Positions 41,701-56,244 of a DNA stretch of 64,000 bases are shown one piece after another. The position numbers were made by a program, and so were the translations under genes. The DNA comes from Bacteroidales bacterium (lineage in GTDB: Bacteria; Bacteroidota; Bacteroidia; Bacteroidales; Muribaculaceae), in NCBI GenBank assembly GCA_029007645.1, contig JAQXIE010000018.1, positions 1 to 64,000 on the forward strand, in the 5' to 3' direction. Position 1 is the first letter of the stretch. Each line of letters begins with the position of its first letter. The notes beneath the pieces were generated by a model that was not told the origin of the DNA, did not search any database, and saw only the letters and a program-made list of their open reading frames with translations.

Positions 41701-42987
41701 ATGACAGACCATAACAAGAAACAGTTCAGCTTCCGGCAGGAATGTCCGCGAGCCAAGCTGCAGGCCACCAACTGGCTGGCCGGCATCTCGGACGCGCGTG
41801 ACTTCGACATCGTGGAGGTGATCTTCAAGAACACGCGCGCAGGCTATTACATCAACAGTCTGGGCCCGGAGGTAAAGATCGGCGACACGGTGGTGGTGGA
41901 GTCGCAGCCCGGCTACGACATCGGACGCGTGAACATGACGGGGCGTCTCGTGAAGCTCCAGATGCGCAAGAACGGCATCAAGGAGGATTCCGAGCTGCGG
42001 AAACTGCTGCGCTACCCCACGCCCCAGGAACTTGACCGCGCCGACGAGGCCCACAGCCTGGAGCATGAGACGATGATCAAGGCGCGCCGCATCGCCGAGG
42101 GATTGTTGCTGAACATGAAGATAGGCGACGTCGAATACCAGGCGGATGCTGCAAAAGCCATATTTTATTACATAGCCGACGAGCGCGTGGACTTCCGGGC
42201 TCTGATCCGTGTGCTTGCAGACACTTTCAAGGTGCGCGTGGAGATGCGCCAGATCGGAGCACGTCAGGAAGCCGGCCGTATCGGCGGCATCGGACCCTGC
42301 GGACGGCCGCTTTGCTGCTCGCAGTGGATTACCCGCTTCAGCAGCGTGGGCACAGGCGCCGCCCGCATTCAGGACATCAGCATGAGTCCGCAGAAACTCG
42401 CCGGACAATGCGCCAAGCTGAAATGCTGTCTGAATTTCGAATCGGCCATCTACGCCGAAGCCCAGAAACAGATGCCCGGCAAGGATGTGCAACTCGAGAC
42501 CAAGGACGCCACCTACTACCTGTTCAAAAGCGATATCCTGGCGCATAAGGTGACCTACAGCACCGACCGCAAGATTCCGGCCAATCTGGTGACCATCGAC
42601 TCAAGCCGCGCGTTCGAGATAATCGCACTCAACAAACAGGGCGTGCGCGTAGACTCCCTGCTGCCCGAAGAGGAAGCCGCCCAGGGCGAGGAGACACCCA
42701 CCGATCTGGTGGAACAGGAAAGCCTGACCCGCTTCGACGGCTCGAAGGGCAAGAAACGCAAGAACCGCGGCCGCCGCGACAAATCGCAGGGCGAAAAGAA
42801 GCAGCAAGGCGAAAAGAAACAGCAGGGAGAGAACAGGCCGCAAGGCGAAAAGAAACAGCAAGGCGAGAACAGGCCGCAGGGTGAAAAGAAACCTCAGGAG
42901 GAGGGCCGGCATCAGCACCAGCGGCGCCGGCAACGTGGCCGCGGCGGCGAACAGCGAGGCGGCGAACAGAAAAAGTCCGAATCATGA
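41701..42987 (+). CDS. ricT: PSP1/RicT family protein with low-complexity basic tail
   Basis: RVEMRQIGARQEAGRIGGIGPCGRPLCCSQW; Cys motifs; QGEKKQ repeats at C-terminus. Confidence 0.88.
   Translation: MTDHNKKQFSFRQECPRAKLQATNWLAGISDARDFDIVEVIFKNTRAGYYINSLGPEVKIGDTVVVESQPGYDIGRVNMTGRLVKLQMRKNGIKEDSELRKLLRYPTPQELDRADEAHSLEHETMIKARRIAEGLLLNMKIGDVEYQADAAKAIFYYIADERVDFRALIRVLADTFKVRVEMRQIGARQEAGRIGGIGPCGRPLCCSQWITRFSSVGTGAARIQDISMSPQKLAGQCAKLKCCLNFESAIYAEAQKQMPGKDVQLETKDATYYLFKSDILAHKVTYSTDRKIPANLVTIDSSRAFEIIALNKQGVRVDSLLPEEEAAQGEETPTDLVEQESLTRFDGSKGKKRKNRGRRDKSQGEKKQQGEKKQQGENRPQGEKKQQGENRPQGEKKPQEEGRHQHQRRRQRGRGGEQRGGEQKKSES
42787..42894 (+). repeat. 18-bp coding repeat, six units QGE[KN][KR][QP]
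   Basis: QGEKKQ QGEKKQ QGENRP QGEKKQ QGENRP QGEKKP. Confidence 0.9.
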
Positions 42988-53468: not shown

Positions 53469-53483
53469 CGCCGGTCATATCGT

Positions 53484-53540
53484 TATTTTTGTCACTGCAG
53501 AGACAATTTATTATCTTTGTCACTGCAGAGACAATTTATA
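53484..53540 (+). promoter_or_regulatory. 28-bp tandem duplication carrying two TAnnTTTG elements and two GTCaCTGCAGaGAC near-palindromes
   Basis: TATTTTTG (53484-53491) and TATCTTTG (53512-53519); 24-bp identical segment tttgtcactgcagagacaatttat at 53488 and 53516. Confidence 0.75.
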
Positions 53541-55163: not shown

Positions 55164-55273
55164 AATTAATCCCGATTAATCTCGATTTATCTTGATTAAT
55201 CGGGATTTGTCCTGATTATTCGGGATTTGTCCTGATTAATCGGGATTTGTCCTGATTGATCAGGATTAATCTT
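55164..55273. repeat. upstream array: eleven 10-bp units GATTNNTCNN
   Basis: aattaatccc gattaatctc gatttatctt gattaatcgg gatttgtcct gattattcgg gatttgtcct gattaatcgg gatttgtcct gattgatcag gattaatctt. Confidence 0.95.
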
Positions 55274-55363
55274 GAGTCATTGGGCGCAATCCATCGCAGC
55301 GCGGATCTGTTGTCCGGCTGTCGGGAACATCGCGGCGGGGCGCAATTATTCGTCTATTAAGAT

Positions 55364-55394
55364 TTGCGGATGTTTTGTAATTGCATTATATTTG
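55364..55394 (+). promoter_or_regulatory. promoter candidate of four-helix gene 2
   Basis: TTG (55364-55366) - 20 nt - TATATTTG (55387-55394). Confidence 0.55.
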
Positions 55395-55414
55395 TGTGAA
55401 ATACCGGAATAATT

Positions 55415-56170
55415 ATGAGCGTCAATATTCAGTTTTCTCAATCTTATTATTGGCTTAACTCCTGGATTTTAGCCAACGTGATTCAGCTTGGCACACAGGA
55501 TTTCTGCGACCGGTTTATCGACCATCGAATGGATCCCGGACGTCGTCTTTACGACCAGATGGTAATGGCTGCCCGTTGTGGTGTGGCCAATATCGCAGAA
55601 GGCTCAGCCCGACACTCTACGTCGGTGGAAACTGAAATGAAGCTGCTCGACGTGGCAAGAGCGAGTTTTGACGAACTTCAGGGCGATCTCTTTAATTTCC
55701 TGCTGCGTCTCCGGGCAGATGTATGGGCTATAGGTAACCCTGACCGCGAGGTAATTTGGCAAATGAGGCTTGATACGCCGCAATATACCAACAGCTATCT
55801 GCATGATGCAGCCATACACATTCTCAATCAAAAAAGCAAATTCGACAGATGGCTCAATAATAAGAATCCCGAAATAGTGGCCAATGCGCTGTTAGTGTTG
55901 TGTCTCAGACAGAACAAGATGCTACAGTCCCAGATTCAGAGTCAGCTTGAGAGCTTCCGCCAGACGGGTGGCTTCACTGAAAATATGACAGCCGAACGAC
56001 TTGAAGCCCGCAAGGTCCAGGCAGCAGAGGCTGGCGCACCGCTCTGTCCGAAGTGCGGAAAGCCGATGTTGCGTCGTATGCAGAAGAAAGGCCAGATGCA
56101 GGGCCGCGAGTTCTGGGGTTGCAGCGACTATCCGCGCTGTGATGGGCTCCGCCCGATGAATCAAGATTAA
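55415..56170 (+). CDS. four helix bundle protein with C-terminal suffix containing a topoisomerase-type C4 zinc ribbon
   Basis: DQMVMAARCGVANIAEGSARHSTSVETEMKLLDVARASFDEL; C-term CPKCGKPMLRRMQKKGQMQGREFWGCSDYPRCDGLRPM. Confidence 0.88.
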   Translation: MSVNIQFSQSYYWLNSWILANVIQLGTQDFCDRFIDHRMDPGRRLYDQMVMAARCGVANIAEGSARHSTSVETEMKLLDVARASFDELQGDLFNFLLRLRADVWAIGNPDREVIWQMRLDTPQYTNSYLHDAAIHILNQKSKFDRWLNNKNPEIVANALLVLCLRQNKMLQSQIQSQLESFRQTGGFTENMTAERLEARKVQAAEAGAPLCPKCGKPMLRRMQKKGQMQGREFWGCSDYPRCDGLRPMNQD

Positions 56171-56244
56171 TCCCGATGAATCAAGATTAAACCTGATAAA
56201 TCCTGATAAATCCTGATAAATCCCGATTAATCGGGATTTGTCTC
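56155..56244. repeat. downstream array: nine 10-bp units GATNAATCNN, inverted in sense relative to upstream array
   Basis: gatgaatcaa gattaatccc gatgaatcaa gattaaacct gataaatcct gataaatcct gataaatccc gattaatcgg gatttgtctc; overlaps last codons and stop of 55415 CDS. Confidence 0.94.

Follow-up and report, generated by a model that had tools for sequence, protein, structure and literature searches.

To our knowledge, S23/23S rRNA IVP proteins have been known since 1993 from intervening sequences (IVSs) of rRNA genes, with no function shown for them. The IVS of Coxiella has complementary ends and is cut by RNase III (PMC4990558), and a mobility role for its ORF was suggested by Ralph and McClelland in 1993, at least as PMC4990558 cites them. 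IVSs have been described only in rRNA genes, with plain inverted repeats as ends (PMC4990558). Several other systems share some of these traits. The palindromic REP sequences flank the gene of their TnpA-REP/RAYT protein and also occur dispersed without it (PMC8266576), and RAYTs are HUH nucleases. Avd of the diversity-generating retroelements (DGRs), a relative of PF05635, acts with nucleic acid in retrohoming (PMC10053308). MITEs are short, gene-less derivatives with inverted ends. Finally, intergenic heptamer arrays of patchy distribution are known as the cyanobacterial STRRs, as TAACTGA repeats (PMC4679880), and as the GGGAATC/GGGGAYT repeats of Xanthomonas and Nostoc, with about 70 close inverted heptamer pairs per Xanthomonas genome (PMC4692102). 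Neither of these two papers names a mobile element, and S23 or four-helix-bundle (4HB) proteins do not come up in their main texts; the link between such arrays and 4HB genes is proposed here, and it may extend to Xanthomonas.

The unit considered here occupies positions 55164-56244 of a 64,000-nucleotide stretch of a Bacteroidales (Muribaculaceae) draft genome (hereafter, the window), and it looks like a copy of a widespread mobile element without a transposase of its own. Like an IVS, it has an ORF of the 4HB family between ends that are predicted to pair into a stem, and IVSs have long been suspected to be mobile (PMC4990558). It differs in being intergenic rather than inside an rRNA gene, and in its 10-bp near-palindromic unit, suffix domain, and zinc ribbon. 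Unlike a REP/RAYT system, it encodes no nuclease, and the repeats of such elements are arrays of 7- to 10-bp units. A search of the open-access literature (subscription journals and preprints being outside its scope) returned no paper joining 4HB genes to short-unit arrays.

The locus and its protein

The upstream array (55164-55273, unstranded) starts 33 bp past the stop codon of a lipoprotein gene and consists of eleven 10-bp units of type GATTNNTCNN, in the order AATTAATCCC, GATTAATCTC, GATTTATCTT, GATTAATCGG, GATTTGTCCT, GATTATTCGG, GATTTGTCCT, GATTAATCGG, GATTTGTCCT, GATTGATCAG, and GATTAATCTT. The register is strictly 10 bp, and the first unit (AATTAATCCC) is degenerate. Nine 10-bp units of type GATNAATCNN make up the downstream array (56155-56244, unstranded), in the order GATGAATCAA, GATTAATCCC, GATGAATCAA, GATTAAACCT, GATAAATCCT, GATAAATCCT, GATAAATCCC, GATTAATCGG, and GATTTGTCTC. 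TRF also detected both arrays, with scores of 140 (upstream) and 92 (downstream). The unit counts and the strict period given in the first-pass annotation are borne out. That annotation also had the arrays bracketing the gene. There is indeed one on either side, with the correction that the downstream array begins inside the ORF (55415-56170), the last codons and stop of which (...MNQD*) are encoded by its first units. The leader between the upstream array and the start codon (55274-55414, forward strand) is not conserved among homologs; even where these are >80% identical, the flanks are not alignable. A run of three GATTWATC units spaced 10 bp apart is present in 14 of 61 genomes of the genus, and its reversal, used as a control, is absent from all of them, which excludes chance as the source of the 10-bp arrays.

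The two arrays had been described as an inverted pair. Their best alignment scores 65 inverted and 64 direct, and the longest exact word common to both is 18 bp in direct orientation (GATTAATCGGGATTTGTC), longer than the 15 bp of the inverted one; because the unit is near-palindromic, the two orientations cannot be told apart for this pair. Pairing between upstream and downstream, which the first-pass annotation considered possible because many units are near-palindromic, is predicted as well: in the RNA minimum-energy fold of the locus, 58 of the 110 upstream-array bases are joined to the downstream array, which places a 4HB-family ORF between pairable ends, as in an IVS. Rfam searches over the arrays of the window returned sub-threshold chance matches only and thus no known RNA family.

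The ORF (forward strand) encodes a protein of 251 aa that combines a 4HB region with a TIGR04258 suffix domain (55868-56014, forward strand; codons 152-200) and a topoisomerase-type C4 zinc ribbon (56045-56161, forward strand; codons 211-249; PF01396, E = 5e-10). The zinc ribbon is absent from the first-pass annotation; the four-helix-bundle call made there holds via the suffix domain, for which the protein scores 52.3 bits (E = 3.7e-14), above the curated cut-off of 40 bits. Scores for TIGR02436 (21.9 bits vs. a cut-off of 24) and PF05635 (21.2 vs. 33.8) fall below threshold. Judged by profile comparison, the protein is a distant relative of the S23/23S rRNA IVP family and, by score, a non-member: a profile search matched it to the S23-family member 2GSC at E = 3.1e-4, and Foldseek gave weak matches only, to 2GSC (XCC0516) and 2RLD (BT_0352), both of the S23 family. 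The solved relative 2GSC forms a pentameric ring. The AlphaFold2 model (pLDDT 85) predicts a helical bundle and a small beta zinc ribbon, and domain searches found no HUH (Y1) nuclease domain in the protein. Among close homologs, dN/dS is 0.04, a value from six usable pairs with saturated synonymous sites that is only indicative of purifying selection.

Arrays beside homologous genes

The draft genome that contains the window (2.01 Mb, 112 contigs, about 90% complete) has six TIGR04258 matches, each with a short array of its own unit beside it (CTATGAGAA, TTAAGGTCC, TCTTATAAG, TAGCTAAGA, ATAGCCTCA at 26947-27150 of the window, and GATTAATCNN). The paralog at 27 kb in the window (27234-27791, forward strand; 186 codons including stop; TIGR04258 75.8 bits) is a 4HB-suffix gene without a zinc ribbon. 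Both of its 9-bp arrays lie upstream, forming an inverted pair with an 18-bp spacer (ATAGCYYCA at 26947-27025 and GCTATYRAG at 27044-27150, both unstranded), and there is none on the other side. Three of the six genes (L001, L002, L006) look truncated or interrupted but still have their arrays, as copies in decay should. A pattern search, the only means by which solo arrays were counted, found GATTNNTC arrays without the gene at two places in the genome (C18:66338 and C31:15234), so gene-less dispersed repeats, as known from REP sequences, occur here as well. One of the two lies in the gcvT-gcvH gap, directly after the gcvT stop codon; among 29 other species fetched, none has an array upstream of gcvH. 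For the unit of a 9-bp paralog (TAGCTAAGN), no solo array was found outside its own locus. Separately, the AraC-type regulator gene of the window opens with a near-perfect 28-bp tandem duplication (53483-53539), and three copies of a 36-bp tandem repeat, probably coding, lie at 42786-42892.

Homologs were chosen by protein similarity alone (56 loci from Muribaculaceae and Prevotella), and an array was scored as associated if it lay within 250 bp of the gene. Arrays were found at 42 of the 57 zinc-ribbon loci with enough flank, on 56 of 114 flanks (28 upstream and 28 downstream), and in 2.0% of 1666 control windows from zinc-ribbon loci. Suffix-type genes have them on 22 of 54 flanks. Plain TIGR02436 genes, a single one from each of 30 Bacteroidales genomes, were meant as a control for specificity to the suffix type; they also have arrays, of period 7 or 8, on 28 of 56 flanks. 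A search of plasmid records with one plain gene matched mainly cyanobacterial plasmids, and 26 of 36 flanks of the plasmid-borne genes carry arrays. Each of the 18 examined, which come from Cyanobacteriota, a Riemerella, an Azospirillum, and a Gemmatirosa, carries a 7- or 8-bp array on one side or both. The layout of a 4HB gene between two repeat runs recurs in relatives from four phyla. Over the four sets, arrays are enriched 26- to 48-fold in odds beside 4HB genes relative to control windows, 2-6% of which have them (Fisher p 2e-50 to 2e-11); no array could be detected beside about a quarter to a third of the zinc-ribbon, suffix, and plain Bacteroidales homologs. Random tandem repeats are ruled out by the controls. 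The first-pass annotation was to fall if gene and arrays proved unassociated among relatives, and they are associated far above control levels, though solo arrays do occur.

The unit itself differs between zinc-ribbon homologs (GATTAATCNN, ATCATGATNN, CGATATATNN, and GTCAGTACTGAC-type 9-mers, with TCGANNNN 8-mers in a rumen clade). Among homologs >80% identical, similarity ends at the ends of the ORF, and, a few close pairs apart, they occupy different sites with different neighbors in different species. None of the 29 same-genus orthologs fetched of the window's downstream neighbor has a 4HB gene beside it, the gaps being too diverged to give an exact junction. These varying neighborhoods indicate that the zinc-ribbon 4HB gene has moved, with arrays that are either rebuilt or fast-diverging. 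Simple co-occurrence of the gene with GATTWATC arrays reaches only borderline significance within the genus (8 of the 21 genomes with the gene vs. 6 of the 40 others, p = 0.057), partly because homologs use other units; the six genomes in the latter group have the arrays and no close gene.

Some individual loci deserve description. By eye, the zinc-ribbon 4HB gene of L041, L061, and probably L034 starts directly after the apparent 3' end of a gene for type I restriction specificity (hsdS). At L070 (4700-5950), the TCGA-type 8-bp arrays form larger blocks (CTCGACCGCTCGAATGCTCGAATGCTCGACCGCTCGAG), which in turn recur on either side of the gene. In L160 (1430-1620), an inverted 7-bp pair (TTTTAGG.../...CCTAAAA) encloses a solo 10-bp GATTWATC array, so that one type of element appears to have inserted into another. 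In Gemmatirosa (L281, upstream of 1201), an inverted 8-bp pair precedes the 4HB gene and a third array directly follows its stop codon.

Where plain loci show similarity between the upstream and downstream arrays, the inverted match is the stronger one at 18 of 21 (10 of 12 and 8 of 9), as in L258 (AGTAGGG.../...CCCTACT) and L262 (AGGGAAC.../...GTTCCCT), so the earlier description as an inverted pair suits these 7-bp relatives; some plain cassettes have direct arrays (L235, L265). Period follows lineage: 7 bp for plain genes, 9 bp for the suffix type, and 10 or 8 bp for the zinc-ribbon type. The suggestion that the unit might track the phylogeny of the protein was followed up for unit length, and it does: on a tree of 128 proteins, the long branches of which make details unsure, period (7, 8, 9, or 10) requires 15 changes, vs. 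a mean of 53.5 when shuffled, and none of 200 shuffles was as low. The window copy conforms, with 10-bp arrays on both sides and a protein within the 10-bp clade. With periods of 7, 8, and 9 bp among relatives, a fixed helical phasing at 10 bp per turn does not hold generally.

The 9- and 10-bp arrays are self-complementary (0.64-0.68 vs. 0.52-0.54 in column-permuted arrays), which makes inversion across the gene unnecessary. The signal is weak for 8-bp units, and plain 7-bp arrays are not self-complementary and mostly inverted across the gene. The two flanks can thus pair in either design, by inversion of the arrays (7 bp) or by self-complementarity of the unit (9 and 10 bp), and in RNA folds of plain cassettes they are predicted to pair as in the window copy. 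In our view, this capacity of the flanks to pair, common to both designs, offers the best lead on the mechanism.

Occupied and empty sites in relatives

Related cyanobacterial plasmids with flanks that are 85-99% identical allowed occupied and unoccupied states to be compared at four sites, and the exact junctions given here stem from these 7-bp relatives rather than from the window copy. At the TraM site, 486 bp (L262) and 479 bp (L278) replace 42 bp of L272; at the integrase site, 518 bp (L267) replace 11 bp of L274/L275; and at the third site, L259 has 447 bp where L276/L279 have 2 bp, and a 7-bp sequence (ATTCTAA) may be duplicated. At all three, the gained segment (447-518 bp) has arrays at both borders and starts no more than a few bases from the upstream gene's stop codon, and no heptamer arrays were found at the empty sites. 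In these relatives, array, ORF, and inverted array were gained together as one segment. The fourth site, between cas6 and cas4, has 849 bp in L268 and an unrelated 273 bp in the 99%-identical L273, and because L273 carries this different segment, the pair is not a clean empty site. No target-site duplication of constant length was seen at these few sites, all from relatives, which argues against an ordinary DDE transposase.

The TraM gap of N. punctiforme (L277) holds a gene-less inverted pair of GGCAGAA-type arrays, a unit that also lies beside the 4HB genes of one protein clade in Nostoc 7120 and Stanieria (L256, L257, L266). Such derivatives resemble MITEs, from which the 4HB element differs in lacking a transposase partner, in having arrays as ends, and in the absence of a constant target duplication. 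Between near-identical copies (L262 and L278; L256 and L257), the difference is exactly one unit, and an identical 4HB protein of Nostoc 7120 occurs on two plasmids with differing upstream sequence.

Two further contexts bear on published observations. In L265 and L268, a 4HB gene with heptamer arrays lies between cas6 and cas4 of CRISPR loci. CRISPR surveys have listed 23S_rRNA_IVP genes among cas genes, often with cas4 and cas6 (PMC3936711, PMC10910872); the layouts seen here suggest insertion rather than a CRISPR function and may explain those associations. In Azospirillum (L280), a 23S rRNA gene (RF02541, 2109 bits) is interrupted by a 4HB ORF bounded at either end by inverted 7-bp arrays, so at least some rRNA IVSs belong to the array-ended class. 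This one record supports the old suggestion of a mobility role for the ORF and the view that such an IVS results from insertion of an array-ended 4HB element into rRNA.

A proposed element class and its alternatives

We consider it probable that 55164-56244 is a copy of a mobile element consisting of one gene and array ends, the ends being recognized by its 4HB protein and catalysis being borrowed. Mobility, which was demonstrated in relatives, is firmer than the role of the 4HB protein, which, like the source of catalysis, we infer. The original description of a gene-plus-ends cassette without a recognizable transposase is thus supported by the changing sites, by the array association, and by joint gain in relatives, and reaches much further than was proposed. 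In the relatives, gene and arrays are acquired jointly at new sites, typically in the gap right behind a stop codon. A pentameric 4HB protein may hold both element ends together by binding the units of its own element, in the form of folded single-stranded DNA or an RNA stem. Catalysis would come from the host, by template switching during replication or repair, or from an enzyme supplied in trans. At the RNA level, the stem may in addition keep damage in check, as in the rRNA IVSs that RNase III cuts out. Arrays would lengthen and shorten through slippage, and gene-less arrays would be either mobilized in trans or left over after decay of the gene.

Four other explanations need to be weighed. 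The one that survives best, though we judge it unlikely, is that the 4HB gene is a passenger and the arrays are moved by a different enzyme, such as a Y1 (REP-type) transposase or a reverse transcriptase. REP/RAYT systems share a similar autonomous and non-autonomous layout (PMC8266576), the 4HB relative Avd works with a reverse transcriptase in DGRs (PMC10053308), and there are five Y1_Tnp matches in the genome of the window. These matches are on contigs other than those with GATTNNTC arrays, however, and the arrays are specific to 4HB genes, with a period that follows the 4HB lineage. A reverse transcriptase as partner in this genome is rejected: unlike a DGR, the draft, about 90% complete, has no RVT_1 match.

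Slightly less likely again is that the arrays are operators, or RNA leader or terminator elements, through which the 4HB protein regulates itself and a small regulon, with movement by ordinary horizontal transfer. Arrays do lie in intergenic gaps beside start and stop codons, and operators too would have a period that tracks the protein lineage. However, arrays are as frequent downstream as upstream, periods of 7, 8, and 9 bp keep no fixed face of the DNA helix, and gene and both arrays enter an operon as a single unit. A gene-less inverted pair entering the same gap (L277) and a copy within 23S rRNA also speak against regulation.

We give still less credence to the arrays being pre-existing targets into which the 4HB gene homes, splitting an array in two. 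That would account for the solo arrays of the window unit in its own genome and for arrays read in the same sense in L235 and L265, but the empty plasmid sites lack heptamer arrays (the arrays belong to the gained segment), the gcvT-gcvH gap is array-free in the 29 other species, and splitting one array would not produce the inversion across the gene that is seen for most plain arrays. Simple-sequence slippage in loose intergenic DNA, with an incidental 4HB association, fits the whole-unit length differences between near-identical copies (L262 vs. L278, L256 vs. L257) and as a full explanation is refuted by the enrichment beside 4HB genes, by arrays arriving together with the gene, and by unit length and inversion following the gene, leaving it a negligible probability.

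Returning to the mobile element, we propose, with the chances about evenly balanced, that it represents a new class without a transposase, in which an S23-type 4HB protein acts as the mobility factor, reading and perhaps even setting the array period, and of which rRNA IVSs, many of the heptamer arrays of Cyanobacteria, Xanthomonas, and Bacteroidota, and the CRISPR association are traces. Three orphan observations may then share one cause: the S23/IVP proteins, the intergenic heptamer arrays (described repeatedly, their mover never named; PMC4679880, PMC4692102), and the CRISPR-associated 23S_rRNA_IVP genes. If 4HB genes and arrays are indeed halves of one element, the function of the family would become directly testable as binding to the cognate array, and the CRISPR association of 23S_rRNA_IVP genes would be better read as a hitchhiking insertion. 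There would also be a new kind of mobility to explain: its ends would be arrays of 7- to 10-bp units whose period follows the protein, and it would involve neither an encoded nuclease nor a constant target duplication.
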